IMG/VR virus record: IMGVR_UViG_3300042261_001794
Location: 1-46,051 of that record
Reading direction: 5' to 3' (one strand)
Origin: a virus
DNA: 46,051 bases
The notes below the pieces were generated by a model, which worked only from the letters and a program-made list of their open reading frames with translations, did not search any database and was not told the DNA's origin. This document shows, piece by piece, positions 3,941 to 37,821 of this stretch (positions are counted from its first letter, which is position 1; every line of letters begins with the position of its first letter). The position numbers and the translations under genes were made by a program.

Positions 3941-4281
3941 AGATAATTTTATTGGCAGATAACGATGACAAAAGAAGAAATGGTTTAATGCATCACCAAC
4001 CAATTTCACTACAGGAATGTGCCTTTTTTAAATTTCCATATGAAGGAAAACATTCATTTTGGAATAAAAATGTTGATTTTCCAATATCGTTAATTTTTGC
4101 TAATAAAAATATGGAAGTTGAAGATGTCAAGTATTTAGACAAACAACAAAGAGAATCTGTTTCTCCTGATTCTTATAATATTAAATATGTTGTAGAAGCG
4201 CATAAAGATGCTCCAGAATTATATAAAATAAAAAAAGGATCTAAAATAAACATAAAAAACGGTGAGGTTTCATTTAAATGA
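3937..4281 (+). CDS. DUF192 family protein
   Basis: A 114-aa protein matching the DUF192 pattern: an N-terminal RNGLMHH (14-20, the family's RxxGLM), a central FWNKNVDFPISLIF (41-54, equivalent to FWMKNTxxPLDxxF), YVVEA (84-88), and a terminal GSKI near 101-104. DUF192 proteins are small beta-sandwich proteins of unknown biochemical role, common in bacteria, archaea and some large phages. Both ends overlap neighbours by 4 nt (ATGA), so translation is coupled to the winged-helix gene upstream and the nucleotidyltransferase downstream. Confidence 0.72.
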   Translation: MKIILLADNDDKRRNGLMHHQPISLQECAFFKFPYEGKHSFWNKNVDFPISLIFANKNMEVEDVKYLDKQQRESVSPDSYNIKYVVEAHKDAPELYKIKKGSKINIKNGEVSFK

Positions 4282-5327
4282 TTAATATTCCTGAAGAAAT
4301 AAAAAAAGACATACTTTTAATAAATCAAGTATCAAATGATTTAAAAATGAAACTTTATGTGGTTGGCGGATTTCCAAGGGATATGGTGATGGGGGCTCCC
4401 GTAACCAATGAGACTGATCTTGATGTGACAGAAGGAAATGGAAATGCTTTCGATTTAGCTTTTTTTGTTTCCGCCAAATATAATTTACATGAACCGATTG
4501 TTTATGGATCTTCTGGCACCGCAATGGTAAATATGGCTAGTGGCAGAACCGTGGAGTTTCATAACGCCTTTTACAATGCTCCACACATAATTGATCAATT
4601 ATACTTGATGGGGATTGAACCAACATCAATTAATAAAGATATATATTGCCGTGATTTTACAATTAATACATTATTATTTGATATAGAGACTGGTGAAATT
4701 TTAGATTTAACTAAATTAGGAATTCAGGATATAAAAAATAAAATTCTAAGAACACCGTTACCAGCAAAAAAAAGTTTAGAAATAAACCCAAAAATAATAA
4801 TACGTGGAATTAGATTCAAATTGCAATTTGACTTAAAAGAAGAAGAAGAATATGCAAAAGAAGTGATTAATTATATTCCTAATTTAATAGAATGGTTGCA
4901 GCAAAACAAGAATAGTAAATTTGTTAGGAATCATGTAGGAAAGGCATTAGAAATAAATGCAACAAAGGCCGTAGAAGAGTATTCTCGTCTTGGTATTTTG
5001 GAATATTTACCAAGCAATCCAGATATAGATAATGTTATTAAAAATAAAATGTTTGGAACAACAGTTAATCATGAATCATTTGATGGTAATGTAAAAACAG
5101 CACAAACAAAAATGATGCAACATATGATGATGGAAAGAGAAAAACATAAGGCTTATATGCGCAGAAAAAAAAGAGAAGACAAACAAAAGAAAATGGAAAA
5201 ATTTAAAATATTAGACAGGGCAAGAAGTGGTTACTATATAGATAATGCTGAACCAGATTTTGTTAAAAATAGAAAAATAGATAAAAATAGAAAATTATTT
5301 CAATATATAACTGAAAGGAGTTTCTAA
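4278..5327 (+). CDS. Class II tRNA nucleotidyltransferase / poly(A) polymerase-like protein
   Basis: A 349-aa Pol-beta superfamily nucleotidyltransferase. The GGFPRD motif at 30-35 and the metal-binding DLD at 47-49 form the catalytic head. CRDFTIN at 124-130 corresponds to the RRDFTxN nucleotide-recognition motif, and IRGIRFKLQF (175-184) to the RAxRF segment that follows. The family adds CCA or poly(A) to RNA 3' ends. The C-terminal region lacks an HD domain and ends in a very basic helix (about 285-310, Lys/Arg-rich), likely an RNA-binding tail. It lies one small gene upstream of a second, larger nucleotidyltransferase, so the two may divide labour as split CCA-adding enzymes do. That division is inference. 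Confidence 0.82.
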   Translation: MINIPEEIKKDILLINQVSNDLKMKLYVVGGFPRDMVMGAPVTNETDLDVTEGNGNAFDLAFFVSAKYNLHEPIVYGSSGTAMVNMASGRTVEFHNAFYNAPHIIDQLYLMGIEPTSINKDIYCRDFTINTLLFDIETGEILDLTKLGIQDIKNKILRTPLPAKKSLEINPKIIIRGIRFKLQFDLKEEEEYAKEVINYIPNLIEWLQQNKNSKFVRNHVGKALEINATKAVEEYSRLGILEYLPSNPDIDNVIKNKMFGTTVNHESFDGNVKTAQTKMMQHMMMEREKHKAYMRRKKREDKQKKMEKFKILDRARSGYYIDNAEPDFVKNRKIDKNRKLFQYITERSF

Positions 5328-5782
5328 TGGATAAGAATTTTTTAAAAATAAATATTGGAGAAATAGATTACAATGAAGTTAAACCATTAATCTTTAGTAA
5401 TTTTGGTATATTGAAAATGGCTCAAGATCTACAAGAACAATTAATGCCAACTGATAATGTAACAATTAATCCAGAAGAAGCATTGTTGTCAAAAGTTGCT
5501 GAAATAATGGGATATCAGTATTCCGATGATATGAGTAAAAAAACATTGCAAAATCTAAAAGTTTGGTCTGACACATATAGTCCAGAAAATATTCAAGAAG
5601 GAATAAGCACACTCACAAATCTTATTAGGGACATATCATCAATGCCCGAAATGAATGAGACATCAGAAGCCAGAATGAGCATCGAATCTGCAATAAATTC
5701 CTTGCAAAATTTTTCAAACCTGTTTATAACATTTGTTGAGGCAAAAGAGCAAGCTGCTGCTTTTATTTCCCAAAATCAATAA
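5327..5782 (+). CDS. Helical hypothetical protein between two nucleotidyltransferases
   Basis: A 151-aa, mostly helical acidic protein with no recognised family. It contains LKMAQ near residue 30, another instance of the hydrophobic-x-x-A peptide seen at domain borders in this window. It starts on a TAATG overlap with the upstream nucleotidyltransferase and has AAAGGAG ahead of the ATG, so translation is coupled. The SD of the next gene (AAGGA) lies directly after its stop. The position between two tRNA nucleotidyltransferase-like genes suggests a partner or adaptor, but nothing in the sequence demonstrates this. Confidence 0.65.
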   Translation: MDKNFLKINIGEIDYNEVKPLIFSNFGILKMAQDLQEQLMPTDNVTINPEEALLSKVAEIMGYQYSDDMSKKTLQNLKVWSDTYSPENIQEGISTLTNLIRDISSMPEMNETSEARMSIESAINSLQNFSNLFITFVEAKEQAAAFISQNQ

Positions 5783-5792
5783 GGACAGCTTT

Positions 5793-8654: not shown

Positions 8655-8668
8655 CATGGAGAAAATTA

Positions 8669-9886
8669 ATGAAAAAAGCACTAACTTTGATTTCAAAAAA
8701 TGTAAATAGTGGATTAAAAATATTAGAAAAAGTAATTGATCAAAACGTTAATCCAATAGATGTTTTATCTTTTTTATATATACAAGAAAACGATAACATT
8801 GCGACAAAAGGCATGAAAAGACAAGCCTTTATTAAAATAAAAAAACAACTTGATGACAATAACACCAATAACGATGAAATATCAACAGAATTAGAAAATG
8901 TTATTGATAGTTATTTTAATAATAAAGAAAAAATCTGTATAGATGATTATGAGACCATTATTTTTGATGCGGATAATACCATTTGGGAAGGCGAATGTGC
9001 TGCCAACTTAATAGCCCCATTTAAAGTAGAACAAGACATGTTAACGGATTCTCAAGGAAAACAAATTAGGCTCAAAGACGGAATTGTAGAAGTTTTAAAT
9101 AAATTAAGAGAATATGGTAAAAACATCGGATTAATTAGCAAATCCGAAAAAGAGAACATTGATTATCAAAATCAACCTATTATATTGGCTTTAAAAGCCT
9201 TTGGTTTATTAGATTTATTCAATAAAGAAATAGTTATTGATGGTAATTTACCAAAAAGCATTTTTATGCCAAAGGAACCGCATGTTTTATTTATTGATGA
9301 CAACATTGATAATTTAAATGACGTAGATGAACATACTAATGCCAGTGTTTTTAATGCAAAAAATATTAAAGAATATGAAAATGATTTGTTTGATTTCGAT
9401 TCAGACATAGAACCTTTAGAGGTTTTAGAATATGAAGAAGATGAGGATATTGATGAATTAACAAAAAATTTTCTTCAAGAAGATGATGAAGTAGCCATTC
9501 CGTTTTTAGATGGTGTCTTGATTAGAGCTAAAATAAAAAAAGCATCAAGAGACCATATTCCTGCATCGGAAATTCCTAAAAAACCAAATGGGAAAGGAGA
9601 ATATGAATTAGATCATATGAAACCAAAACATAAGGGAGGACAAGATAAAAAAGACAACCTTCAATGGATACCTAAAAATGAACACGAAAAAAAATCTAAA
9701 GATGAAGGTTCTTTTGAGTATGGTGGCGAAAAGAGACAAGATTTGTTTAAAAATGAAAAATCGTATCATAAATTCCAAAGTGATGCAGCCAAAGAAAAGA
9801 TAAATCAAGAAAAATCTAAACTTGGCGAAAAGGGGTTTAGCGATTTACAATCAGAACGAGCAAAGAAAAGATGGAACAAAAAATAA
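8669..9886 (+). CDS. HAD phosphatase fused to an HNH nuclease domain
   Basis: A 405-aa protein. Residues about 96-245 are a HAD hydrolase of the MDP-1/FkbH type: DxDxT nucleophile motif at D100-A-D102-N-T, a Ser/Lys motif in GLISKSEKE, and the acidic LFIDDNIDNL segment. After an acidic linker (about 245-275) comes an HNH nuclease-like domain with ELDH (313-316) and an Asn in KKDNLQW (N330), followed by a Lys-rich tail ending ERAKKRWNKK. The N-terminal 95 residues are helical and unassigned. HAD plus HNH suggests end-processing of nucleic acid, as in phosphatase-nuclease repair enzymes, but the substrate is unknown. The SD (ATGGAGAAA) is good and the gene overlaps the next by 16 nt. Confidence 0.78.
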   Translation: MKKALTLISKNVNSGLKILEKVIDQNVNPIDVLSFLYIQENDNIATKGMKRQAFIKIKKQLDDNNTNNDEISTELENVIDSYFNNKEKICIDDYETIIFDADNTIWEGECAANLIAPFKVEQDMLTDSQGKQIRLKDGIVEVLNKLREYGKNIGLISKSEKENIDYQNQPIILALKAFGLLDLFNKEIVIDGNLPKSIFMPKEPHVLFIDDNIDNLNDVDEHTNASVFNAKNIKEYENDLFDFDSDIEPLEVLEYEEDEDIDELTKNFLQEDDEVAIPFLDGVLIRAKIKKASRDHIPASEIPKKPNGKGEYELDHMKPKHKGGQDKKDNLQWIPKNEHEKKSKDEGSFEYGGEKRQDLFKNEKSYHKFQSDAAKEKINQEKSKLGEKGFSDLQSERAKKRWNKK

Positions 9887-10332
9887 AATATTTAGTTCAT
9901 GTTATTGATTCCGCTTCTATTTTTGAAAACTTAGATAATCAATGGAAACTAATAGAAAGTAAAGACCAAGACAATAATGTTTGTGAAATATTGTTGTCGG
10001 ATGCATTTTATTCTATTGAAGCATCTGATATTATGGATGTTTTAACAAATTTATCTAATATAATAAAAGTTAAAACTACAGATCAAGAAATTACATTAGC
10101 AGAATCATTGTTGAATACAAAAAACAAATTAAAAATATTTGATTTTGAATCTAAAAATGAACCAACAAGTTTACTTTCTTCATCTGATATTAAAAAAGTG
10201 GTTAATCCTTATTCTAAATATTTTTGTGCATCATGTCAAATAAAAATAGATGATAACACATCATCTTATTATGAATTACATGAAATATCATTTTATATTG
10301 TCGAAGAAAATAAAATTATGGATATTTCTTAA
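9871..10332 (+). CDS. Hypothetical protein with CASC motif
   Basis: A 153-aa protein, unrecognised. It begins 16 nt inside the HAD-HNH gene with a weak AAAGAAAAG ahead of the ATG, consistent with translational coupling. It is Ser/Asp/Asn-rich with alternating beta-like hydrophobics. A CASC pair near residues 117-120 is the only notable motif and could be half of a metal site. The downstream gene follows after 14 nt. Confidence 0.6.
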   Translation: MEQKIKYLVHVIDSASIFENLDNQWKLIESKDQDNNVCEILLSDAFYSIEASDIMDVLTNLSNIIKVKTTDQEITLAESLLNTKNKLKIFDFESKNEPTSLLSSSDIKKVVNPYSKYFCASCQIKIDDNTSSYYELHEISFYIVEENKIMDIS

Positions 10333-10346
10333 AGGTAAAGGTAAAA

Positions 10347-11204
10347 ATGAAATTTATTGTTGATTCTTATATTAAATCAAAAAACTATTCTGCATTTATT
10401 ATGTATATAAAATACTTACATAAATCAGATAAAATAGCAATTGCAGATTATATTGATTCTTTAGAAGAGGAAATAAAAAAAGAATTATATTACGGACTTT
10501 CTTGTATAAACGAAAATGTAGCAAACGAATTAAAATCTCTAACTACAAAAAAAGATAAAAAATTTTCAATTAATATTCTAGGTAAAGATTATAGTGCTAA
10601 TGAATTATATTTTGCATTAATGAGAGATCACCTTGTTTCTGCTGTCTTTTTAGATGAATTTATGCATAAATCAGAAGATGAACGAAATCGTTTAGTTTCT
10701 CAACTCATGGCAGAATGTCCTGAGCTTGAAAAAGAATTGAACGGTATAACAGAAGAGACTATAAAAAAGTACGATTTTACAGAAAACAAAAAAGAAGAAA
10801 CAAAAGAAGATGATATCTTTCTAAAAGAGTTTAATAAGTATAAGTATTTTATAGAAATTATCCTAGAGCTTTTAAAAACAAAAGAAGTTAGCGAAATGTC
10901 GGATAATTTATCAAATATAATTGATGAACTATCTGTTTTATTGGAAAAACCTGTTGACTCATTCTTCAACATGGTAGATGTTTTTACTTATGAAATTCAT
11001 AAATCAGCATTGGATAAAACACAAAGAGAAGCTGAAAATATTTGCCAATTTTACAATTATTTAATAAAAGGCGATAATAGAATACCAACTGATTTGGCTG
11101 ATAAAATAACATTGATTAAGGCACAAAGAATAATTGAAGATAGAGATATTCAAGATATTGAAAATTTATTAATTTCATTAAAAAAGGGACAAAAGAATGT
11201 TTGA
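10347..11204 (+). CDS. Helical acidic hypothetical protein
   Basis: A 285-aa protein, almost wholly helical by sequence, rich in Lys, Glu, Asp, Ile and Leu, with a charged Glu/Lys linker near residues 140-160. No catalytic motif or membrane segment is visible. AAAGG sites precede the ATG at suitable spacing. The 3' end overlaps the next gene by 8 nt. It could be a structural or adaptor protein; I cannot assign it. Confidence 0.62.
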   Translation: MKFIVDSYIKSKNYSAFIMYIKYLHKSDKIAIADYIDSLEEEIKKELYYGLSCINENVANELKSLTTKKDKKFSINILGKDYSANELYFALMRDHLVSAVFLDEFMHKSEDERNRLVSQLMAECPELEKELNGITEETIKKYDFTENKKEETKEDDIFLKEFNKYKYFIEIILELLKTKEVSEMSDNLSNIIDELSVLLEKPVDSFFNMVDVFTYEIHKSALDKTQREAENICQFYNYLIKGDNRIPTDLADKITLIKAQRIIEDRDIQDIENLLISLKKGQKNV

Positions 11205-11625
11205 TTTTTACAATGAATGTCCTTTTCCAATAAATATAAACGCAGACGAACTAATAGATAATAATACTGATCAAAAATATTTATTAGATTTAATTAATAA
11301 TGATGATTTATTAGGATTAAAAGATTTTTATGAGGATATGGTATCATTGTTTTTAAACAATAACTTTAAAAAAGGAATATTTGCAATTATACATGATGCT
11401 AAGGATATTTTAACTGATTTTGAGAACGATGATTATGTATTTCAAGATTTAAATATAGATTTATCTCACTTAAAAGGAATGACAAAAGATGATTTGCAAT
11501 TATTGATAATTCCTTTTAATGATATGGATGATTTAAAATGGTTTGGTTTGTTATATCATAAAACAAAATTAATAGAATATTGTATTGATGGAAAGATAAT
11601 TGGCTGTAATTACATATCTAAATAA
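11197..11625 (+). CDS. Small acidic hypothetical protein, last gene of the left operon
   Basis: A 142-aa protein rich in Asp, Asn and Leu, with repeated acidic patches and no recognised domain. The start is 8 nt inside the preceding gene, with AAGGG a few bases upstream, so it is probably translated by coupling. It is the final gene of the plus-strand run, because a hairpin terminator follows 24 nt after the stop. The two preceding genes have a similar composition and may form one functional set with it. Confidence 0.6.
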   Translation: MFDFYNECPFPININADELIDNNTDQKYLLDLINNDDLLGLKDFYEDMVSLFLNNNFKKGIFAIIHDAKDILTDFENDDYVFQDLNIDLSHLKGMTKDDLQLLIIPFNDMDDLKWFGLLYHKTKLIEYCIDGKIIGCNYISK

Positions 11626-11648
11626 AACAAAATGAATACTCTAAGATT

Positions 11649-11683
11649 TCCTCTGTTGATAACAAATCTACAGAGGATTTTTT
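11649..11683 (+). terminator. Rho-independent terminator ending the left operon
   Basis: The stem TCCTCTGT / ACAGAGGA (8 bp, 13-nt loop, 11649-11677) is followed by six T residues. Confidence 0.8.
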
Positions 11684-11733
11684 ATTTATATATAGGAAAA
11701 TATTGGTAGGTTTATATTTATAAGGAGTAATTT

Positions 11734-12495
11734 ATGCCTATCAAAAGACCTTCACAAAAGAATGTAAAGAAAACAAAAAAAGAAACAAAAATGGCTGTTT
11801 CACCCATGGTAAATCAAAGAAGGTATAAACCACAACTAAAAGCAAGAAACGATAAACAACAACAAGCAATTGATTGCATCGAAAAAAGCGATATATCATT
11901 TCTGTTGGGTCCGGCAGGAACTGGCAAAACGCACCTTGCTATTATGTATGGTATTATCGGATTTATGAATGGTAAATATGATAAATTAATTCTAACCAGA
12001 CCTGTGGTTGAAGCCGGTGAACATCTTGGCTTTCTTCCTGGAACCTTAGAAGAAAAAATAGAACCATATTTAAAACCATTGACTGATCATTTACATGATA
12101 ATTTTGATAAAGCTTATTTGGATGAAAAAATAATCAAAAAAGAAATTGAAGTTTGCCCATTGGCTTATATGAGAGGATCTACTTTTAAAAGAGCATGTGT
12201 TATTTGTGATGAAATGCAAAACGCAACCGATAAGCAATTAAAATTATTACTTACTCGTATTGGTGAAGGAACTAAAATTATAATAACTGCCGATCCTGAT
12301 CAATCAGACCTACCAAAATCTAATGATATAGATTTAATTGCTGAATTTTTATCAAAATCAGAAAGTATAAATCACATAATATTTAACGAAGAGGATTCGG
12401 TTAGACATCCATTAATTATAGAAATGCTTAAAATCTATAAAGAAATAGATGAATTTAAAAAGGAAAGAAGATTAAAAAGATTAAATAATGAATAG
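11734..12495 (+). CDS. phoH: PhoH-like P-loop ATPase
   Basis: A 253-aa protein of the PhoH family, ATPases linked to phosphate-starvation responses and RNA metabolism and common in phages. Walker A is GPAGTGKT at 59-66. The family signature TRPVVEAGEHLGFLPG lies at 88-103, and Walker B is DEMQN at 159-163. Length and domain content match short PhoH proteins without an N-terminal PIN or KH domain; the first 35 residues are a basic tail. AAGGAG sits 6 nt upstream of the ATG. It forms a single-gene unit between two terminators. Most phage PhoH proteins have no proven role in infection, so the function here is inferred from the family only. Confidence 0.92.
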   Translation: MPIKRPSQKNVKKTKKETKMAVSPMVNQRRYKPQLKARNDKQQQAIDCIEKSDISFLLGPAGTGKTHLAIMYGIIGFMNGKYDKLILTRPVVEAGEHLGFLPGTLEEKIEPYLKPLTDHLHDNFDKAYLDEKIIKKEIEVCPLAYMRGSTFKRACVICDEMQNATDKQLKLLLTRIGEGTKIIITADPDQSDLPKSNDIDLIAEFLSKSESINHIIFNEEDSVRHPLIIEMLKIYKEIDEFKKERRLKRLNNE

Positions 12496-12501
12496 AAAAC
12501 T

Positions 12502-12528
12502 AGGGCAGATTTAATTATCTGCCCTTTT
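12502..12528. terminator. Bidirectional terminator between convergent phoH and HNH genes
   Basis: The stem AGGGCAGAT / ATCTGCCCT (9 bp, 6-nt loop) is followed by TTT on the plus strand and by AGTTTTC on the minus strand. The stop codon of the minus-strand HNH gene lies in the loop. Confidence 0.82.
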
Positions 12529-13056
12529 AAAATAAAGTCCATTATTAATTTTATTTAATGCCTTTTCCAATCGCTTATCGCAAATCAATAAGTCTTCCAT
12601 TTTAGGCTCGAATGGTTTTCTTAAAAGCTTCATATCGGTTTCATGTAACAATTTATTGTCTTTTCTTGTATTACATTTTTCGCAACAAATGACAAGATTT
12701 GTCCATGTATTTCCTGGTGATGACGGATGACTTTTAGGAATAATATGATCAATAGTATTTTTTTTATTTTTTAAATCACATCCACAATATTGACATTGAA
12801 ATTTATCTCTTAAAAGCAGATTTCTTCTATTTAATTTCACCCTTTTTCTAGGTATGTATATATATTTCCTTAAAGCCATAATTACTGGTTTTTTTATACC
12901 TAAGTTTGGATGTATTATTTCGCCATCTTCTTCAGTCTCTACGACAATAGCTTTATTTGCTAAATAAAGACCTACGGCTCTCACAAAAGAAATAAATGAA
13001 TTAACTGTGTGATCAGCATTTAATAATACAATTGACTTATTTTTTGTATTTTTCAT
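12511..13056 (-). CDS. HNH endonuclease with two CxxC zinc pairs
   Basis: A 181-aa HNH nuclease. Zinc pairs are C88/C91 and C125/C128. The active-site core is D103-H104, with N120 and N129 completing the HNH pattern (TIDHIIPKSH, then TNLVICCEKCNTRK). The layout matches the common stand-alone HNH enzymes that nick or cut double-stranded DNA. The N-terminal 80 residues resemble the accessory region of such bacterial and phage proteins. The SD is poor (AAGG). The gene is flanked by a terminator on each side and transcribed against phoH, so it may be a mobile homing-type insert, though it does not interrupt a visible gene. Confidence 0.82.
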   Translation of the reverse strand: MKNTKNKSIVLLNADHTVNSFISFVRAVGLYLANKAIVVETEEDGEIIHPNLGIKKPVIMALRKYIYIPRKRVKLNRRNLLLRDKFQCQYCGCDLKNKKNTIDHIIPKSHPSSPGNTWTNLVICCEKCNTRKDNKLLHETDMKLLRKPFEPKMEDLLICDKRLEKALNKINNGLYFKRADN

Positions 13057-13093
13057 TTTTTTAGCCTTTTTAAATTATACGATATAATAAAAA

Positions 13094-13121
13094 TGCCCCA
13101 CCTAAACCAATAAGTGGGGCA
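13094..13121 (-). terminator. Rho-independent terminator of the zinc-ribbon protein gene
   Basis: The stem TGCCCCAC / GTGGGGCA (8 bp, 12-nt loop) is followed on the minus strand by TTTTTATT. It lies 24 nt past the stop of the gene at 13145-13939. Confidence 0.85.
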
Positions 13122-13144
13122 CAGTTCAAAATTTTAATAACAGT

Positions 13145-13939
13145 CTATTCAATTAGCATTTTTACTATCACGTCTAAAGAGTTTCCACACTTCATACAAT
13201 AATTTGAATTATAAGTATTTTTTTGTCCACATATTGTGCAATAAATATTTTTAGTTTCTTTAACCGTGGCTGGTTTTTGTGCCCCTTTTAACCACAACAC
13301 TACTTCGTAACTAATTTTTTCTAATTTACCAATACTTCCATATTTAAATAGTTGACTTGATGAGGTTCCTTCAACTGTTGCTCCGCTTGTTGTTTCTTCT
13401 TCAAGACTGTAATCTTGTGTGTTATATGAAACAGAATCACAAGAACAAGTAGACATCTTTTTTGAAAATAAAGAAGAAGAAGCGCCTTTTGAATCATATT
13501 CAAATCTAGAAATTTCCCTTGCGGAGTATTCGGATGGCATTGATTTTGTAATTGTTTTTTTTCTTACAATAATTTCTCTTTCTTCTTCTAATTTAAACAC
13601 AACAGAAACCTTTCCATTTTCTGAAGATGTTGGATCTTGCACACGTCCATCAGATTTTGCTGGAACAAATTCCAACTTATTTCCTTTGTTTAGATTACCA
13701 TCAAGACAAAAACGTTCAACATCAACAAAACCTTTAGCTGGAACAATAATATCATAACCACCTAAAATATCAGTTCCATCAATTTTAATTCGTGCTATTG
13801 CCGATCGATTATGTGTGTTTTTTAACCTTAATGAATAATTAGAATAGAAGGGAAGAAAAACCTCTCCATTTTTAGACTCTCTTAAAATTTCGCCATTGGC
13901 GTTTTTTACTGCGATAACAAAACCATTACTATACATCAT
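13145..13939 (-). CDS. Beta-rich protein with C-terminal zinc ribbon
   Basis: A 264-aa protein. Residues 1-120 look like a beta-sandwich (ANGEILRE, EVFLPFYSNYSLRLKN, IARIKIDG), a pattern I associate loosely with phage and bacterial surface proteins but cannot name. A Ser/Thr-rich middle (about 150-200) is probably flexible. The C-terminus has two CxxC pairs (CTIC and CMKC, about residues 231-250), a rubredoxin-like zinc ribbon. AAAGGAG precedes tandem ATG codons. It has its own terminator and a 152-nt divergent region upstream, so it is likely an independently transcribed gene. A virion surface role is only a guess. Confidence 0.68.
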   Translation of the reverse strand: MMYSNGFVIAVKNANGEILRESKNGEVFLPFYSNYSLRLKNTHNRSAIARIKIDGTDILGGYDIIVPAKGFVDVERFCLDGNLNKGNKLEFVPAKSDGRVQDPTSSENGKVSVVFKLEEEREIIVRKKTITKSMPSEYSAREISRFEYDSKGASSSLFSKKMSTCSCDSVSYNTQDYSLEEETTSGATVEGTSSSQLFKYGSIGKLEKISYEVVLWLKGAQKPATVKETKNIYCTICGQKNTYNSNYCMKCGNSLDVIVKMLIE

Positions 13940-28954: not shown

Positions 28955-29821
28955 TTAGCTGGTAGCTGTTAAGTTAATTTTGGCCAAAGCGTAGTCATTG
29001 ATGACTACGACTCCCAACTCTTCATAAATTACCCAACCAAGTCTTAAGTTTTTAGGATCATCTGCGGGTAAAACAGTGATGTCTTGACGAACAGGAATTG
29101 CACCAACATATTCAGCAGGAGCAAGTAGGAAAACTTGTCCTTCGGGAACACGATGGGAAACGTGAATGTCGCCTGTCCATAAGTGACCGAATAAACCGGA
29201 CATAAGAACGTCACGACGAGTTGCTTCGTCATAAACATCACGACCAAACAAACGAAGATCGGCATATTGACGTGGATGCATAACGATTTTAGCAACAGTC
29301 AGGTCATGTGATTCAATTGTGCTGAAAGCGTAGTTCAAGGAAGCGATAGACAAGTCACCAGATTGGGTAACAGTCTGATTGGAACGAACTGAAGTGCCGA
29401 TAGCGGCAAGGATTTCAGTATCTTCCAACTTTTGGATAGCTTCTTTTGATTTCATTTGGGCGCGGTCAACAATGTAGAAACGGCGAGCTTTGATTTCGCT
29501 CAAACGGATCTGAGGATTAACTGCGATTTCCCAAGTAGGAACAAGAACTTCTTCGCCTTCAACGATCATGTCAGGCACTGCGCCACGGCGAGCGACAACA
29601 TGAGCAACAGAGGTCACATCCTTCTCATATCTGGCAAGAGCGCCTTGGGGCAACTCATCAACCATAAGAAGTTTTCTACCAATTGCCTGATATTCAAGGG
29701 CGCGTTTGATTGGTTCAACCATTGCTTGGGCAAGGGCAACACGACCTTCAGGTGTTTCAAGAGCTTGAGCAATAATAGCTTCACGCTGCTTGTCATTGTA
29801 GTTAGATTTAATCATTGACAT
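28955..29821 (-). CDS. Major capsid protein (HK97-fold)
   Basis: A 288-aa shell protein. The N-terminal helix (residues 1-50), then VARRGAVPDMIVEGEEV and VPTWEIAVNP (E-loop/P-domain region), the spine-like helix QMKSKEAIQKLEDTEILAAIG, and the C-terminal HPRQYADLRLFGRDVYDEATRR and GWVIYEELGVVVIND stretches fit small HK97-fold capsid proteins of large phages. Codon use is clearly more GC-rich than in surrounding genes, as expected for the most abundant virion protein. AAAGGAG precedes the ATG, and a dedicated terminator follows. Position at the end of the portal-protease-scaffold run supports the call. The exact family is not named because I cannot run a profile search. Confidence 0.82.
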   Translation of the reverse strand: MSMIKSNYNDKQREAIIAQALETPEGRVALAQAMVEPIKRALEYQAIGRKLLMVDELPQGALARYEKDVTSVAHVVARRGAVPDMIVEGEEVLVPTWEIAVNPQIRLSEIKARRFYIVDRAQMKSKEAIQKLEDTEILAAIGTSVRSNQTVTQSGDLSIASLNYAFSTIESHDLTVAKIVMHPRQYADLRLFGRDVYDEATRRDVLMSGLFGHLWTGDIHVSHRVPEGQVFLLAPAEYVGAIPVRQDITVLPADDPKNLRLGWVIYEELGVVVINDYALAKINLTATS

Positions 29822-30479: not shown

Positions 30480-31757
30480 TTACTGATGATCAGACTCATC
30501 AAAATCATTCAACATTTTGCCAATTTTTGTTCCAGACATAAAAATATCTGTTAATTCTTCTTTTTGTCCAATGCTTGCAGATTTTCTAAAATCGTCAGCA
30601 GGGATTACGATTGCCGTTGCAAGTCCCCCGTCAGCCTCAGAGCTTACGAAAGCCTCAACAGTTTTCTTAACAGTATTTTCTGCCTCTTTCTGTACTTCAT
30701 TGACTTCTTCTGTTGCACGTTCGATAGCGTCAATGTTCATCTCGGAGTTTAGAGTCTTTTCAATCACATCATTAAAGATCTCTGCACTCGCATACTTTTT
30801 GGGATTTAATTTAAGAAGTGCTAATGCATAATTTATAGCTTTCTCTCTACGAGCTTCGCGAATAATATACTTGTTTACTTCTGCTTCTTTTGTTAATAAT
30901 TGTCTTTTAGCTTCTTTATAAAGCTTCTCAAATTCATTTCCCGCAGTCTTTTCCGTGTTTGTAGCTTTGGCAGTAGCAGTTTCTTTGCAACATTCCTCAG
31001 AATCGGAATTATCCTTTTCCCATGGAAGTTTTTTACTGCTCTTTCCTTCGGATTTTTTTGCTTTAGTTTCTGCTTCATCTTTTTCTTTATTTGCAAGGTG
31101 TAAATTTTGATAGACTTCTGAATCAGATTTCCATTTTATTTCACTACCTGCTAATTTATTTTCACTTTCATTACTTGCAGTATGGTTTTTTTCTGAACCA
31201 GCTTTAGCCGGTTTATCAGTTGGGGTATATTTTTGAACATAAGAATCAGGCTTACCAGAGGTAGCCTTTTCGGCCTTCTCACTTTCAAAAGTAGTTTTCT
31301 TTCCACCTTCTAAACCACTATTACCTTTTGATCTGGGAACAACATCAGTATGCATGTTATCTTTGCCAAGTCCATAATCTCTCTTTCTGACTTTTTTAGG
31401 ATTGGCTACATCAGGTCTATCTTTGGTAACTTTTTTTGTTTCCGGTTTGGCTTTTTCAGGTTTGGAAGGGACATCTTTACTATTTTGAACGCCATCAATT
31501 GGTTCGGTCTTATTACTCATTTGAGTGGCAATAATTTGTTTTTTAATTCTTTTTGTGGCATACTTGGCATATAAACAACCATCTTCTTTATTAAATTGAA
31601 ATGAAGATAATTTTTCGCCTTTATATGTTTTCGGAAGCAAGCTTGCCAAGTAAGTGTTAATTTCTTCTGTAGAAGCTTTACGAATATCGCCATTAGAAGT
31701 ATGAGCAACAATTGTTCCATTTGAATACATTGAAAATTTATGATTATTTTTGGACAT
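30480..31757 (-). CDS. Scaffold-like protein sharing a module with the protease fusion
   Basis: A 425-aa, highly charged protein. Residues 1-70 are a small folded region (KFSMYSNGTIVAHTSNGDI). Residues about 80-260 are disordered, Lys/Glu/Ser/Pro-rich. Residues 114-176 contain a module (DVxNPKxVRK, YGxG, HTDVVPR, GGK, TSGxPDxYVQK) that also occurs near the end of the adjacent 1979-aa protein. Residues about 265-400 are a long helix rich in Ala, Glu and Lys, typical of scaffold or core proteins. AAGGAG lies just before the ATG. It lies between the protease fusion and the capsid genes, so a procapsid core role is likely, with the shared module perhaps binding a common partner. Confidence 0.68.
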   Translation of the reverse strand: MSKNNHKFSMYSNGTIVAHTSNGDIRKASTEEINTYLASLLPKTYKGEKLSSFQFNKEDGCLYAKYATKRIKKQIIATQMSNKTEPIDGVQNSKDVPSKPEKAKPETKKVTKDRPDVANPKKVRKRDYGLGKDNMHTDVVPRSKGNSGLEGGKKTTFESEKAEKATSGKPDSYVQKYTPTDKPAKAGSEKNHTASNESENKLAGSEIKWKSDSEVYQNLHLANKEKDEAETKAKKSEGKSSKKLPWEKDNSDSEECCKETATAKATNTEKTAGNEFEKLYKEAKRQLLTKEAEVNKYIIREARREKAINYALALLKLNPKKYASAEIFNDVIEKTLNSEMNIDAIERATEEVNEVQKEAENTVKKTVEAFVSSEADGGLATAIVIPADDFRKSASIGQKEELTDIFMSGTKIGKMLNDFDESDHQ

Positions 31758-31881: not shown

Positions 31882-34800
31882 TTATTTCAAGTTATTCAAA
31901 TTAACTTTATACACTTTATCATTCTCTAAATTGGCAACGAAAACAAAGTTTCCATTAACTACGGCTTCAAGCTTACTGGCATCAAGACCTTTGGAATGGG
32001 AAACTCTGCTGATTGCAATTTTGGCAAAATCTTTTTTTGATGCAACAGCATTATTTTTCTTATTACCTGCTGGAGTTGGTTTGATGTAATTTTCTTTAGG
32101 GATTTTCTGAACATAAGTATCAGGATTTCCAGAAGTTTGTTTTACACCAGTTTCTGTGTCAAATTTAGGTTTTTTGCCACCAAGACCATCGCCAGAAGAA
32201 TCTCTTGGAACTACATCTGTATGAAGATTGGTTGCTTCGGGACCAAATCCGTATTCATTTTTTCTGACAGTTTTAGGATTTTTTACATCAGATCTGCCAG
32301 GATTGACTTTTGGATTTGATTTTGATTTATCTCTTGGAACGTTTAATGATTTTTCCTCAGAATTTTTTTCAACTTTATCTTCTTGCAAAGAATAAACCGG
32401 TTCAGTTGGTACTGATTTCATTGATTGTGCTTCTTTGGTTTGTTTTTTGCTTTTTGCAAAAAGTCCATTTTCTGATTTGTCAATTTCTGGAGTATCTTCC
32501 ATATCAATGTCGCTATCAGATTCAAAATCTTCTGATGGATCATCACTTTCAAAATCATCATCACTTTCAAAATCATCATCACTTTCAAAATCATCATCAC
32601 TTTCAAAATCATCACCAGATTCTAAATCAATGTCACCTGATTTAATCTTTACTTCAGCTAACAATTGTTCAAGTTCTTCAGGAGTTACTTCTTCGTTGTT
32701 TTTGATTTTTTCAGCAATATCACTAACAGGGCTTGAATCCTCATTGAATTCACCACCAAAATCTTCAGTAGAATCATCATCATTATCCATCATTGGATCG
32801 TTATCTATCATTGGATCGTCATCCATCATCGAATCATTTTCAGTGTCATCAACATCTTCAACAGTGGATGGAGATTCGGTTTCAGATGCTAAAGGGGCAG
32901 AATAAAGTTCTTGTGCTTTTTTGTTAAAATGTTTTGCAGATGCTTTCTTTTTAACAATTACTTCAACGCCTCTATCAGATCCTTGAATGGCTTCATCTTT
33001 TGCCAATGTACTGCCAGTAGCGTTTTCAGCCTTCATTTTTTTAGCAGTATTTTTATGATCAGAAGTATGAACAGGTTCGCCATCTTCAACTAAACCGACC
33101 TCTTCATTTTTGGGAACATCAGCTTCAGTTGATAAAGGCATATTAACGCCTAAAGCTTGAGCGACTTTAGAGATGTCCAAATTATTTCCACCAACTTTAT
33201 TTGAGCTAGAAACCATATCATGTCTTAAATATTCTGCTTTAGAGGCTTTTTTTGCTTGTGGGCAACAAGATGGATATTCGTCATCTTCATCATCATCAAA
33301 ATCTTCTTCGTCATCTTCATCTTCATCTTCTTTTTCAAATTCTTCAAGACCAGAATGGAACAAGCCCTTTAATGGATTAGCAATTTCTTCTTCGTCTTCA
33401 ACAACTTCTTCCAATCCGTCATCTTCAGTTTGTAAGTCATCATATTCAGAAATTTCTTCTGGAGTACCTTCGATTTCTTCAGAAACTTCAAGTGAATCAT
33501 CTCCACCTTCCATTTGTGAATCGGTTGTTACTTCGATTTCAAATTCTGAACCATCTTTATCCGTGCCCTTAACCAATATTGAATTAATTGTATTTGGTTC
33601 CATACCTAAATCAGTTTCGTTATCATTATCTTCAAATTCAACTTGATCGCCAGAATCTTCAGGCATTTCATCTTCCAATTCAACTATGTCGTCCATTGAT
33701 TCATCTCCTTCGTTTTCCTCATTTGATTCTTCAACGGCTTCTTCATGGATTTCGCCTTCTGAGGATTCATTGTCATTATCCAAATCTTCACCAGTTTCCT
33801 CTTCTTTTTCTTCAACTTCGCCATATGATTCTTCTAAATCATCATCGTCTTCATCAAGAAGTGCTAATTTAAGACCAGCTTTTCTTAATTTTTCAGATTC
33901 AACTTTTAAAGCAAGTTTTCTAATTGAAGAACAAACTTCAACAGCATCTGCATCGGTATAACCATTGCCGATTTGATCACTCATACAGGCCAACATTGGG
34001 TTTTCTTTACGTATAGTAGAAGCAAACTTATTAATGGATTTTCTACTGGAAAGAATTTGATGTAAAGCATCTTTAATTTCATCACAATTATCACATTTAG
34101 CGGTAACAGCATATCCGCCTTTTGAGCCGTTAGGATAAACCTTTTCTTTTTCGGCCAATTCAATATTTGGCAAGAAGGTTAAAGCGACTCTAACTTTATC
34201 ACCATTTGTTTTGGCTTTAACATGAGATTTACAACCACATTCAACGCATATACCGTTGGATTCTTTAAATGCAACTTTAACACCACCGCATTGTGGGCAA
34301 TGTAAACCAACAGGAGCAGGATCACTAATTTTGCAAGAAATACGTTTAGCAGCACCAATAAAATGTAATGGATTAAAATTACCAACCAATCTTAATGGAG
34401 CATTTCTAAGCCAACCATTGCTATGTGCCATTGGCATACCGCCACCCATTGGAGCGCCGCCCATTGGAGCGCCACCAGCAGGAGCACTTGCTCCAACAGG
34501 AGCAGAATTTAATTGATCATTAATTTCAGAACCTTCTGAGCCTTCTTCATTCATTTCTTCATTTTCTTCACCAGATTCTTTGGCAAGACCAACATCAGAA
34601 TGAACTTCAGGATTCAATAAATTCCAATTAATTTCTAATTCATATTCAGATTCACATTCGTTACATTTATATTTACCATTCATTGCATCGACATCTTCGC
34701 CACCGCAAACAGGACAAACAGCACCAAATGGTTTAGCTTCGCCTGATCCAGATGACATGTCATCATCTTCGGTTGGATCTTCTGCCATGGTAGGATCGGC

Positions 34801-37800
34801 ATTCATATTGCCACCACCACCGATGTCTTCAAGACCAGGACCGCCCATTGGTGAACCACCAGCAGGAGCACCACCGCCAGCAGGAGGCATTGTAGTTCCA
34901 GCAGGACTTTGGGCTTGTTTTTTCATATTAGATTTATTGGCAATTTTTTGTAATTTTTCGATAACTTCAGCAGCAAGTTGCATTTCTCCAACCTCGTTTT
35001 CAACTTCATTTCCAACTCCAACAGTATTGTCCATACCTGTTTCCATGGTTTGAACGTTATTTGGATTTTGTGTTTGATCTGCATTTTGATTTTGAGTTGA
35101 CAACCAATTAGTATAATCTTGATCGCTAACAATAACATTTGTAACAAACATGCCGTCTTCATATCTTACGCCGTCTATGCCTTTAGCGCCTTTTACCTGC
35201 GACATTAAATAATCACGCAAGAAACCTTGTTTAAGGGCTTTAGCTACGTCAGTAATTTTAAATTTATCAGCAATTTCAGATGCAGAAATGTTTACGGGAA
35301 TAGATTTAGCAAAACGTTTGCTCCAAGCGGATTTAACATTAGCCGTTTTTCCTTGTTCAACAGTTTCAATATCAACTTTATTATCAGCAATATTTTTCAA
35401 TTCATCAATTTTTTGATCGGCAACACGACCAATTTCATCTGTTAAAATGTCCATATCATCATAAAGCACATCAATTGTTTCTTCGATATAATCATTAGCT
35501 AACTCACTATTAACACCAATTTCGCTAATAATTGCATTTTCAGCAATTGAAGAAACATCGTCTGAAGTTAATTGTGCTTTTTTAACAATACTATTTAATT
35601 TAGCTGATTTAATTTTATTAGCATTAGGTTTAACCGTTGCCAAGGTTTTTGGAGAAATCCTATAAGCAACAACTGCATTAGCCAACCCATTAACAAAAGC
35701 TTCGATAACACGATCAGCAACATTCTTGGAAGAACCTTGTCTATGTCCATCGATTTGTCCTTCTAAAACTTCATCAACAGCTTCACCAAGTCTGTCCTTA
35801 CCGGCAAATTGAACTTCGGTTGTGCCTAATGAACCATCAGCAACATCATTATTCCAACGTTTAAATTGGTAGTCGAATGTTGATAATTGTTGTTCATGAA
35901 CAGGTCTATCGTTTTCAGCAACACCACGTTCAACACCAAATTTAGTAGGACGTGAATCATCTAATTGACTTTCTAAAACTTCACGGTCTTCTTTGACATC
36001 ATCAGAACGCTGATTTCTTGAAAAATCACCCTTTCCAGTTTCAGGTGTCTTAGGAACATTATCCAATTGTCTTTCTGTGGTTACACCAACTTGTCCAGAG
36101 GCTAAACTTTCATCGTTTTTGCGATTAAAATTACCAGACATTTCTTCCAATTGACGTTCCATGACCTTATCTACTGGAGGGGCATTTGTAAGAAGTGCCT
36201 CTTTAACATTTTTTTCATTATTGGCCATCTTTATCTCTCCATTTTCATGATAATTATCAGAAAGCGTCTGTATAATTCTTCCTGCAACAACCTGTGGATC
36301 AATTTTTGCCATTGAGACCAATTCATCACCAAGTTCGTCAGATGTTAAAGACGCTACTTTCTTATTATTTATATACCCTTCAATACCTTTTTTAGGATCA
36401 ATAACAACAGAATATGCTCCATCAGTTACCGTTATTGGTTCATTATTTACAATTTGCTCATCAAGCATTTGTGCAAATTTTTCACTAATTATTGAAGATG
36501 CTGATTTTCTAGCTTTATCTCTTCCACTAATAGGCATATCTATCACTCCCTCATTATTTTTAATTTTATTAATTTCATCTACTAAATTGCTTATTTCTGA
36601 AGCAATAGTGTTTAATTCCTTTATATTTATACCAAATTTATTAATATTGTTTGAATTATTTGATGCAACAGGCATTTGTTGTGGTGTTTGTTGTGGTGTT
36701 TGTTGTGGATTTTGTTTTAATAATTCATCCGTAGTTTGTCCACCAGTTGGTATTTGATTCATTTCGCCTTTGACCCCTTCTCCTTCATCAGGAGCATTTA
36801 GACCATTCTCACCAGTTCCATTGCCGTCATTAGCAAAGCCAGCTTCAACTAGCGAAATAATTAAATTTTGTAATTCTGATAACAATCCACCTATATCTTC
36901 TAAAAATTCAAAATCAACGTCTTTTGAAGCAAGAATTTGATTAGCAACTTCTTTTAACATATCCAAAGCCTTATTGAGTTTATCAATATCTTCGCCTCTG
37001 GCTTGTTTGTTTAAAGTTGCATTTTTTCTCATTGTAACTAATTCTTGATGACGACTAGCAACAACGGTTTTAACCTTTTCTCTCAATTCTGATAGTAATT
37101 CTGGACCAGTTTTAACATTTTGAATTGTGCAATTTTCACAAGCACCATCTGTTACAGCCGAAAGTTCAATAAATTTAATACCAAAATTTTTCTCATAAAC
37201 TTTTTGGCCTTGAACAGTTTTGCCTTTAAAATTTTTAATATGTTGGCAATAATCATCTTCACCAATAGCTTTATTTTTGCAAACAGAACATTCCGAAAAT
37301 TTAACACTACAACCCATGGACACATCAGAAATATATCCCTGTTTAATTCCTCTTGCCAATTGAGGATATGCTTTAGCATCAACCATTGCATCAACATAAG
37401 CACAATGGTTATCTAAATCATAAAAGGCATTTACGATTCTTCCTCTTGATTGTTCGATATCATCATTTTTATGATTTGTGAATATCGAGCAACCAATAAA
37501 AGTTTCAAATGCCTTTTTACCATTATCATCTTCTGCTAAAAGTTGTTCTTCTGAAAAATAATCGCCATTGTCATTTGCGCCATAATATAATTCGCCAGTC
37601 TTATCCGATCCACCGGCATCAATTGCTCTTGCACGAAAAATAACCCAATCATTAGGATCTTTATCTTCAAGTTCAGCAACCAAGTTAATAGAATTATTAG
37701 CATGAATTAAGTTGTTACTTATGTCATGCTTGATATATGATGCTTGTCTGGGACCAAATAATAAAATATCCCTATCAATAATTGAGGCTTTTTTTAAAAT

Positions 37801-37821
37801 TATAGCTTTTTTGATTAACAT
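31882..37821 (-). CDS. Prohead protease - scaffold fusion protein (1979 aa)
   Basis: Residues about 50-240 are a prohead serine protease of the gp21/HK97 type: H117 in FTNHKND, SRGRI (125-129), and nucleophile S168 in DVSMG, with C178/C181 and C192/H194 forming an inserted zinc site. The remainder is scaffold-like: Gln/Pro repeats (373-384), six spaced ExQ[L/I/F] motifs (555-690), Gly/Pro/Met-rich linkers, zinc ribbons near 1034 and 1174, and a long Asp/Glu-rich tract (about 1325-1770) with tandem DDFES. A C-terminal module is shared with the 425-aa neighbour. It would form the procapsid core and then mature it by proteolysis. AAAGGGG precedes the ATG. In-frame SD-ATG sites at residues 429 and 532 could give separate scaffold products, as in lambda C/Nu3. 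Such a long fusion is exceptional. Confidence 0.82.
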   Translation of the reverse strand: MLIKKAIILKKASIIDRDILLFGPRQASYIKHDISNNLIHANNSINLVAELEDKDPNDWVIFRARAIDAGGSDKTGELYYGANDNGDYFSEEQLLAEDDNGKKAFETFIGCSIFTNHKNDDIEQSRGRIVNAFYDLDNHCAYVDAMVDAKAYPQLARGIKQGYISDVSMGCSVKFSECSVCKNKAIGEDDYCQHIKNFKGKTVQGQKVYEKNFGIKFIELSAVTDGACENCTIQNVKTGPELLSELREKVKTVVASRHQELVTMRKNATLNKQARGEDIDKLNKALDMLKEVANQILASKDVDFEFLEDIGGLLSELQNLIISLVEAGFANDGNGTGENGLNAPDEGEGVKGEMNQIPTGGQTTDELLKQNPQQTPQQTPQQMPVASNNSNNINKFGINIKELNTIASEISNLVDEINKIKNNEGVIDMPISGRDKARKSASSIISEKFAQMLDEQIVNNEPITVTDGAYSVVIDPKKGIEGYINNKKVASLTSDELGDELVSMAKIDPQVVAGRIIQTLSDNYHENGEIKMANNEKNVKEALLTNAPPVDKVMERQLEEMSGNFNRKNDESLASGQVGVTTERQLDNVPKTPETGKGDFSRNQRSDDVKEDREVLESQLDDSRPTKFGVERGVAENDRPVHEQQLSTFDYQFKRWNNDVADGSLGTTEVQFAGKDRLGEAVDEVLEGQIDGHRQGSSKNVADRVIEAFVNGLANAVVAYRISPKTLATVKPNANKIKSAKLNSIVKKAQLTSDDVSSIAENAIISEIGVNSELANDYIEETIDVLYDDMDILTDEIGRVADQKIDELKNIADNKVDIETVEQGKTANVKSAWSKRFAKSIPVNISASEIADKFKITDVAKALKQGFLRDYLMSQVKGAKGIDGVRYEDGMFVTNVIVSDQDYTNWLSTQNQNADQTQNPNNVQTMETGMDNTVGVGNEVENEVGEMQLAAEVIEKLQKIANKSNMKKQAQSPAGTTMPPAGGGAPAGGSPMGGPGLEDIGGGGNMNADPTMAEDPTEDDDMSSGSGEAKPFGAVCPVCGGEDVDAMNGKYKCNECESEYELEINWNLLNPEVHSDVGLAKESGEENEEMNEEGSEGSEINDQLNSAPVGASAPAGGAPMGGAPMGGGMPMAHSNGWLRNAPLRLVGNFNPLHFIGAAKRISCKISDPAPVGLHCPQCGGVKVAFKESNGICVECGCKSHVKAKTNGDKVRVALTFLPNIELAEKEKVYPNGSKGGYAVTAKCDNCDEIKDALHQILSSRKSINKFASTIRKENPMLACMSDQIGNGYTDADAVEVCSSIRKLALKVESEKLRKAGLKLALLDEDDDDLEESYGEVEEKEEETGEDLDNDNESSEGEIHEEAVEESNEENEGDESMDDIVELEDEMPEDSGDQVEFEDNDNETDLGMEPNTINSILVKGTDKDGSEFEIEVTTDSQMEGGDDSLEVSEEIEGTPEEISEYDDLQTEDDGLEEVVEDEEEIANPLKGLFHSGLEEFEKEDEDEDDEEDFDDDEDDEYPSCCPQAKKASKAEYLRHDMVSSSNKVGGNNLDISKVAQALGVNMPLSTEADVPKNEEVGLVEDGEPVHTSDHKNTAKKMKAENATGSTLAKDEAIQGSDRGVEVIVKKKASAKHFNKKAQELYSAPLASETESPSTVEDVDDTENDSMMDDDPMIDNDPMMDNDDDSTEDFGGEFNEDSSPVSDIAEKIKNNEEVTPEELEQLLAEVKIKSGDIDLESGDDFESDDDFESDDDFESDDDFESDDPSEDFESDSDIDMEDTPEIDKSENGLFAKSKKQTKEAQSMKSVPTEPVYSLQEDKVEKNSEEKSLNVPRDKSKSNPKVNPGRSDVKNPKTVRKNEYGFGPEATNLHTDVVPRDSSGDGLGGKKPKFDTETGVKQTSGNPDTYVQKIPKENYIKPTPAGNKKNNAVASKKDFAKIAISRVSHSKGLDASKLEAVVNGNFVFVANLENDKVYKVNLNNLK
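32541..32612 (-). repeat. 18-bp tandem repeat coding DDFES-type units
   Basis: Four perfect head-to-tail 18-bp copies (plus strand CATCACTTTCAAAATCAT) encode an acidic DDDFES-type repeat at residues about 1737-1760 of the protease-scaffold fusion. Copy number may vary between strains. Confidence 0.85.
36226..36240 (-). promoter_or_regulatory. Internal SD and in-frame ATG (residue 532)
   Basis: On the minus strand GGAGAG is followed after 6 nt by ATG (MANNEKNVKEALL). This would start a product immediately before the six ExQL motifs. Confidence 0.45.
36535..36552 (-). promoter_or_regulatory. Internal SD and in-frame ATG (residue 429)
   Basis: GAGGGAG is followed after 8 nt by ATG (MPISGRDKARKSASS). 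A product starting here would lack the protease domain, as lambda Nu3 lacks the C protease. Confidence 0.45.

Follow-up and report, generated by a model that had tools for sequence, protein, structure and literature searches.

A giant gene with an N-terminal prohead-protease fold and conserved internal start signals, predicted to be a nested protease-scaffold gene in a virus with a capsid protein of the phage G lineage

The 46,051-base virus record IMGVR_UViG_3300042261_001794 (IMG/VR), analysed here over its full length and referred to as the window, was found to carry a single open reading frame (ORF) of 1979 aa that combines an N-terminal domain with the fold of a prohead protease and a very long second part, for which a scaffold role is proposed. 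It lies on the minus strand (37821 to 31882) and has an ATG start and no internal stop; the initial annotation of this DNA had given the same extent and length, and no strand. The computed observations are this ORF, the fold, invariant catalytic-type residues, internal start signals, colinear split forms in relatives and the enrichment of a short motif. A nested protease-scaffold gene is their best explanation, and the full mechanism is considered probable.

That the protease is active, that the second part acts as scaffold, that the internal starts are used, that the motif is cleaved and that the capsid protein is bound are predictions of this mechanism. The full-length 1979-aa chain, with the protease at its N-terminus, would be a minor component of the procapsid core, and ribosomes starting inside the gene at M429 and/or M532 would make the major, protease-free scaffold of about 1450-1550 aa. 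The scaffold part common to both products would let them co-assemble, so that the procapsid takes up protease in a limited amount; the leading candidate for a capsid-protein contact is the extreme C-terminal module, which in the window lies on a separate 425-aa gene. Once the shell was complete, the protease would cut the N-terminus of the capsid protein and many Ala-Ser/Gln sites in the scaffold, which would then leave ahead of DNA packaging. A strict one-to-one fusion would be odd because T4 cores contain about 576 copies of scaffold and 100 of protease (PMC5694885).

The protease domain and its relatives

An AlphaFold model of residues 1-262 had a predicted local distance difference test (pLDDT) value of 79.7 and a predicted template modelling score (pTM) of 0.77, with a core above 90. 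The top solved match of this model by Foldseek/VIA was T4 gp21 (Z 9.2, 133 residues, 3.3 A), followed by herpesvirus proteases at Z 5.3-8.7, with the unrelated MCE proteins lower at Z about 5. Among the predicted viral proteins of BFVD, Foldseek gave 169 matches at E <=0.001, phage G gp19 being the first and several being named prohead protease. On the model, the N-terminal residues about 50-245 are a prohead protease by fold, so that the comparison of residues 1-250 with gp21 proposed in the initial annotation came out as anticipated there.

H117 and S168, which had been described as catalytic-looking, were found at these positions and are invariant in all 38 aligned relatives. E210 and E219 are also invariant in this 38-sequence alignment and are candidates for the third catalytic residue, which is Asp in gp21 and His in herpesviruses. 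C-terminal of the catalytic-type serine lies a putative zinc knuckle, predicted to bind zinc. Together with the gene's place between the portal and capsid protein genes, the fold and the conserved His and Ser are features of a prohead protease with the gp21/assemblin fold, and proteolytic activity is predicted for the window protein.

Several results count against this assignment. Foldseek alone found no match in the PDB at E <=0.001 (gp21 was at 7.8e-3), Pfam models in general do not recognise the domain, and neither the record nor the window protein matched Pfam S78 (PF04586) over its curated cut-off. When 25 family members were compared with Pfam, PF04586 was listed for none and S78_2 once, at E 0.097; a search of PDB chain sequences with the protease profile gave nothing at E 10.

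Relatives were collected with the giant's first 259 residues, which matched 68 viral loci, and with a profile search of which the best 80 of 260 matches were used. The resulting tally of 87 ORFs consists of the 68 from the first search, 15 of the 19 from the profile search, the window and three actinophage genes; removed beforehand were L078 (L001's contig), L133 (two overlapping ORFs), L147 (split) and L148 (phage G, with the protease as a separate gene). Sixty-two giants were left once near-copies had been taken out. The window giant belongs to group B (4 giants); group C holds 44 and the actinophages 3, the remaining group being designated A. Two of the giants, L001 (1865 aa) and L002 (1896 aa), have 69-72% identity over residues 1-262.

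Two relatives carry inteins within the protease domain at two distinct invariant places, that of L068 directly after S-M-G (ORF residues about 181-558) and that of L079 directly before a zinc-knuckle Cys (ORF residues about 207-574). The protease homologue bears unexpected names in some records, such as LysM-like endolysin in Gordonia phage Skog (NC_054725.1) and putative endolysin in Erwinia phage Yoloswag; the oddly annotated records are NC_054725.1, NC_028986.1 gp89 and KY448244.1. A peptide-pattern scan of bacterial genomes gave 54 matches, with no relative of the giant among them.

The region after the protease and a candidate cleavage motif

The initial annotation described the roughly 1700 residues after the protease as low-complexity, acidic and zinc-ribbon sequence. 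Zinc ribbons, acidic tracts and Gly/Pro/Gln linkers are indeed present, but the region is not simply of low complexity, being colinear in relatives and containing folded units in the model. The AlphaFold model of residues 425-1325, of low confidence overall (pLDDT 55, pTM 0.29), displays small folded units, including the two zinc ribbons, with disordered linkers between them. Alignment with hhalign disclosed colinearity of the groups past the protease over about 1,060-1,100 columns, with E 7e-105 for B and A (1094 columns), 4e-96 for B and C and 5e-110 for A and C. Judged by its architecture and by its place, with the portal gene on one side and the decoration-like and capsid genes on the other, this part would be the scaffold. 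Its disordered stretch has an [IV]-[TV]-E-x-Q-L motif every 20-35 residues, also seen in L064, L128 and L144, and this repeated E-x-Q-L motif is possibly a binding element.

The precursor occurs whole and cut at three places. Group A giants carry the C-terminal module in one piece, and in five group A loci (L064, L080, L128, L133, L144), though not in L141, the decoration-like and capsid genes come next. In group B the break falls before the C-terminal module, which has its own gene; the C-terminal part of the 425-aa protein aligns to columns 1709-1814 of 1835, at the C-terminus of the one-piece giants. Group C giants are broken after the zinc ribbons, and the second gene matches with E 8e-5 and 0.0024. 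L147 is cut early, into 470 and 1621 aa. In a tree of 44 rows the split L147 stands beside the one-piece L064 (100/99), inside a one-piece clade (98/95), which suggests that the L147 form arose by fission; the tree program warns of long branches meeting, and phage G and Tunturi are not firmly placed. A peptide-pattern search for relatives of the 425-aa protein returned 4 stretches, none confirmed, yet counterparts adjoin the giants of L001, L002 and L079.

Other comparisons are less favourable to a common scaffold unit. The matches of the C-terminal module are modest (E 1.4e-4 and probability 52% for group B, E 0.0024 and probability 12% for group C), and a comparison of the group B piece with that of group C gave no match (E 0.03). 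The proteins in the scaffold place of phage G (gp20, gp21) and Tunturi (gp332) had no similarity to any part of the giants detectable by hhalign. In L141 a 1274-aa ORF adjoins the giant instead of the decoration and capsid genes.

The capsid protein of phage G matures from 282 to 255 residues, as determined by N-terminal sequencing (PMC5646251), which by residue count places the cut between A27 and Q28. This site, VALA/QAM, fits the motif [KR]-[TVIL]-A-[SQ] at P2, P1 and P1' and not at P3. The motif was spotted by eye in the giants and tested afterwards: it occurs 634 times in 61 giants against 117 expected. Permuted-motif controls gave 94, 257 and 138 against about 117-118, A[KR][TIVLK][SAGQN] itself being about twofold up. 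With local shuffles, enrichment above 1.6-fold at the third position was obtained for Ala only (5.2-fold). Sixteen matches lie inside the protease fold and 605 outside it, and some sit in predicted folded parts (e.g. W 488). The motif is not confined to the giant, since it is also up 4.0-fold in the other ORFs of the same loci pooled.

Its distribution along the loci was followed by group. In group C the five genes before the giant are up 3.7-5.9-fold, the giant 5.2-fold and the next gene 4.9-fold; the gene after that is at 0.65, the capsid gene at 0, later genes at 1.0-1.4 and the other strand at 1.15. Counted in this way, the motif is a mark of interior head genes in group C, and the major capsid protein lacks it. 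Group A shows clear enrichment for the giant (4.2) and genes -3 and -4 (about 3), but not for -1 and -2; for group B the giant alone is clearly enriched (4.6), and the values of genes -1 and -2 (2.5, 2.7) rest on few counts. The constancy of the LAQAM site in the capsid proteins of the motif count is uninformative because these proteins were selected by that string. Taken as it stands, [KR]-[TVIL]-A-[SQ] may be a cleavage site. Glu is the residue after which the proteases of T4 and SPN3US cut (ITE, LTE, AQE; PMC5694885), and for herpesvirus assemblin cuts are predicted at YLQA-T and VQA-S (PMC4498786); by this analogy the putative cleavage code would resemble that of assemblin.

The same motif enters the strongest rival, namely that the post-protease part serves chiefly as a polyprotein from which internal head or ejection proteins are released. 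Its folded units and zinc ribbons would then remain in the virion or pass into the host, as happens in phiKZ-like phages, and another protein would act as scaffold. Several folded units and two zinc ribbons would be unusual in a transient scaffold, the candidate motif runs along the whole chain, and giant phages such as SPN3US have many protease-processed ejected proteins (PMC5694885). However, the actinophage giant lies directly before the decoration-like and capsid genes and no other gene occupies the usual scaffold place, though a gene of 604-1271 aa lying upstream might take on the role, and the conserved internal starts described below fit a need for many protease-free copies. This alternative is regarded as unlikely; the two models also overlap, as T4 cores contain both kinds of protein.

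Predicted internal start sites

In-frame start codons were scanned, and two sites with Shine-Dalgarno sequences were found just past the protease and its linker, at M429 (site 1) and M532 (site 2). The duplex energy of site 1 is -11.7, compared with -7.8 for the giant's own start; as a reference, the true starts of 35 ORFs in the window average -6.2 and all 1916 ATGs -1.4. For an unbiased test, start-codon columns kept in at least 75% of a group were taken, and their duplex energy was compared with that of synonymous shuffles. In the 44 giants of group C one of 17 columns stands out, with z -19.8 (n=43), the next being at -1.8. Site 1 has z -4.4 among 14 columns in group B (4/4), and site 2 has z -3.3 among 4 columns in the three actinophages (3/3).

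Site 1 has a duplex energy of -7 or better in 10 of 11 giants and site 2 in 52 of 61, compared with 5.6% of 2377 other internal ATGs, and GGAG precedes the ATG at site 2 in 57 of 61 giants, compared with 70 of 2388 other internal ATGs; outside group C these counts are inflated and partly circular because the sites were chosen after the Shine-Dalgarno hits had been seen. Each of the three codon phases is represented among the GGAG at site 2 (24, 17 and 16 cases), and therefore the nucleotides, not one peptide, are conserved there. The 62nd giant, L062, is outside the pattern, with GAGG preceding M570. In L147, a single case, the gene is split near site 1 and the second ORF has its own GGGAG (-9.0), the start codon of site 2 being gone. 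Because two conserved in-frame Shine-Dalgarno/ATG sites are present and a relative is split near one of them, it is likely that both the full-length protease-scaffold and a protease-free scaffold are made. The initial annotation had expected one protease per scaffold chain unless internal starts alter the ratio; its first clause is not supported as written, and the sequence favours the second, with M429 and M532 as the predicted starts.

Some observations tell against this reading: in groups A and B the site 2 signal is no stronger than the peptide forces (z -0.5 and -0.4; NGE in B), and site 1 was detected in 7 of the 11 giants of group A and in none of group C. These z values speak for a second rival, in which the GGAG-ATG are by-products of a conserved peptide and a single product carries one protease per chain with no internal initiation. 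They are outweighed by the z values of group C, of site 1 in group B and of the actinophages, by the retention of GGAG in three codon phases with different peptides, by the physical split of L147 near site 1, and by the contrast of a 1:1 ratio with the T4 core. Such a single product is thus given little credence, less than the polyprotein, and a nested protease-scaffold gene is preferred.

Last, an assembly artefact joining two genes, a possibility raised in the initial annotation and in keeping with a single record that is a 46-kb fragment, is very unlikely because long fused ORFs recur on separate contigs of relatives (at least 800 aa in 80 of the 87 ORFs, the remaining 7 running off contig ends) and cultured Rhodococcus, Gordonia and Mycobacterium phages carry the fusion in ORFs of 895-1511 aa; for the family this explanation is already refuted. 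The fusion is therefore not unique to the window. In one relative, L133, the giant occupies two overlapping frames, 7857-10358 (833 aa) and 10334-13423; near-relative L132 has one ORF, and the break in L133 is a frameshift, natural or by sequencing.

Related systems and neighbouring genes

Nested protease/scaffold genes are already known, as in lambda C/Nu3, and the protease-scaffold genes of lambda and Mu-like phages have a few hundred codons. They share with the window gene an N-terminal protease and an in-frame 3' nested scaffold with its own Shine-Dalgarno sequence and start, upstream of decoration and capsid genes; the internal start past the protease that defines the C/Nu3 type is present here as a sequence signal. 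The likeness is one of architecture, and the window gene differs in its 1,979 codons, two internal sites, zinc ribbons, protease zinc knuckle and phage G capsid-protein lineage. In Mu-like phages the internal start within the protease gene has a plausible Shine-Dalgarno sequence (PMC4378225).

Herpesvirus UL26/UL26.5 comprises a protease-scaffold precursor and a 3'-coterminal in-frame scaffold gene (PMC4498786). The logic of precursor and in-frame scaffold is shared, as are the fold (VIA) and Ala at P1, followed by Ser or Thr at the predicted herpesvirus sites and by Ser or Gln in the motif found here. In herpesviruses, however, the internal product arises from its own transcript, the triad is Ser-His-His and the host is eukaryotic; the likeness concerns only how the system would work.

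The nearest cultured counterparts are Mycobacterium phage Alice gp90, Gordonia phage Stormageddon gp13 and Rhodococcus phage E3 gp77, which have a homologous protease (hhalign E 6e-24 against the window's group), 660-1280 further residues, internal site 2 and a position before decoration-like and capsid genes. The internal start is predicted at M1114 in Alice and at M675 in Stormageddon. These proteins differ in length (895-1511 aa) and have no similarity past the protease detectable by hhalign. These genes are annotated as hypothetical protein, capsid maturation protease and prohead protease, with no internal start annotated in the stretches shown. Separate-gene homologues of the protease, sought as the initial annotation had advised, were found in Bacillus phage G (gp19, 300 aa) and Tunturiibacter phage Tunturi_5 (gp331, 287 aa); these phages share the protease domain and the capsid lineage, with N-terminal processing of the capsid protein in phage G. 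By description, the bS21-encoding freshwater phages of Chen et al. (2022) are also among the closest known systems. In small actinobacteriophage siphoviruses head functions are likewise fused in one gene, but the genomes are of 17 kb and the capsid protein is part of the fusion (PMC7302621).

What would be new here is the giant size and the conserved pair of internal sites in this phage lineage. In the accessible parts of the literature searched, which comprised papers free of subscription, nothing describes a giant nested protease-scaffold gene for such phages. In its broadest form the proposal concerns a deep phage lineage that ranges from mycobacteriophages to uncultivated phages (contigs up to 479 kb) and whose heads would be built from a self-processing protease-scaffold polyprotein of 900-2,200 residues. 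Conserved internal ribosome-binding sites would set the protease dose, and the Ala-Ser/Gln code, [KR]-[TVIL]-A-[SQ], would resemble that of assemblin and differ from the Glu code found in T4 and SPN3US; the odds on this proposal are judged even. As the precursor is seen whole and cut at three places, fusion and fission of head genes would be directly readable. How protease and scaffold are dosed and very large capsids templated is poorly understood, the phage G capsid having T=52 (PMC5646251), and in cultured Mycobacterium, Gordonia and Rhodococcus phages both the predicted internal start and the predicted cleavage motif are testable. If correct, the proposal would add a third, bacterial case of nested protease-scaffold logic beside lambda and herpesviruses, and assign a function to a large family whose members mostly appear as hypothetical protein in the records listed.

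Table 1 Coordinates of the giant ORF, its predicted parts and neighbouring head genes in the window.
Feature	Position	Strand	Basis or remark
Giant protease-scaffold precursor (predicted)	31882..37821	-	1979 aa; relatives carry equivalent ORFs
Prohead-protease fold, residues about 55-240	37102..37659	-	PHROG 18299 head maturation protease E 5e-15; PHROG 2774 E 2.5e-29
H117, candidate catalytic His	37471..37473	-	within TNHKNDD; invariant in 25/25 and 38/38 sequences
S168, candidate catalytic Ser (S-M-G)	37318..37320	-	within DVSMGC; invariant in 25/25 and 38/38 sequences
Putative zinc knuckle, C178-C181-C192-H195	37237..37290	-	C178, C181, C192 invariant in 25/25 and 38/38 sequences; H195 = H or C
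Helical segment, residues about 272-330, then Gln/Pro linker	36832..37008	-	kept in L001, L002 and group alignments; helical pairing is a reading of the sequence
Predicted internal start site 1, GAGGGAG and ATG of M429	36535..36552	-	product 1551 aa without protease; duplex energy -11.7
Small folded unit, residues about 432-525, long helix and four strands	36247..36528	-	model block pLDDT 65-82
Predicted internal start site 2, GGAG and ATG of M532	36226..36240	-	product 1448 aa without protease
Disordered stretch with six E-x-Q-[LIF] motifs, residues 555-690	35752..36165	-	sequence and model
Helical unit, residues about 699-815	35377..35727	-	model
Zinc ribbon 1, C1036/C1039/C1053/C1056	34624..34722	-	all four Cys invariant, 28/28
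Zinc ribbon 2, C1175/C1178/C1192/C1195	34177..34305	-	C1192 invariant, rest at least 90% (28 sequences)
Acidic region, residues about 1327-1514	33280..33843	-	sequence
C-terminal segment, residues 1779-1927, repeated in 425-aa protein	32041..32487	-	BLASTP 39% identity, E 7e-22
425-aa gene, putative separate C-terminal piece of scaffold region	30480..31757	-	hhalign E 1.4e-4, probability 52%; start energy -8.5
Decoration-like protein, 195 aa	29859..30446	-	weak: Phage_cement_2 E 0.015; PHROG 1731 E 0.0055; PHROG 122 E 0.011; position
Major capsid protein, 288 aa	28955..29821	-	PHROG 2522 major head protein E 1e-64
Expected capsid N-terminal processing site A31/Q32	29726..29731	-	alignment with phage G gp27
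Portal protein, 1574 aa	38455..43179	-	PHROG 16240 portal E 5e-28; broken up by LAGLIDADG intein-like sequence

The gene order on the minus strand is a 277-aa ORF, a 567-aa ORF, the portal gene with its intein-like sequence, a 120-aa ORF, the giant, the 425-aa gene, the decoration-like gene and the major capsid gene, whose product shares 51% identity with Bacillus phage G gp27. The portal ORF matches LAGLIDADG_3 (E 7e-14) in two stretches and has a DUF559 nuclease-like domain close to its C-terminus. ORFs of 80-160 aa lie on the opposite (plus) strand inside the giant, e.g. at 33173-33872, and nothing marks them as genes. Elsewhere on the plus strand, the adjacent ORFs at 4278-5327 and 5733-8654 both begin, as judged by eye, with apparent tRNA nucleotidyltransferase (CCA-adding) sequence.

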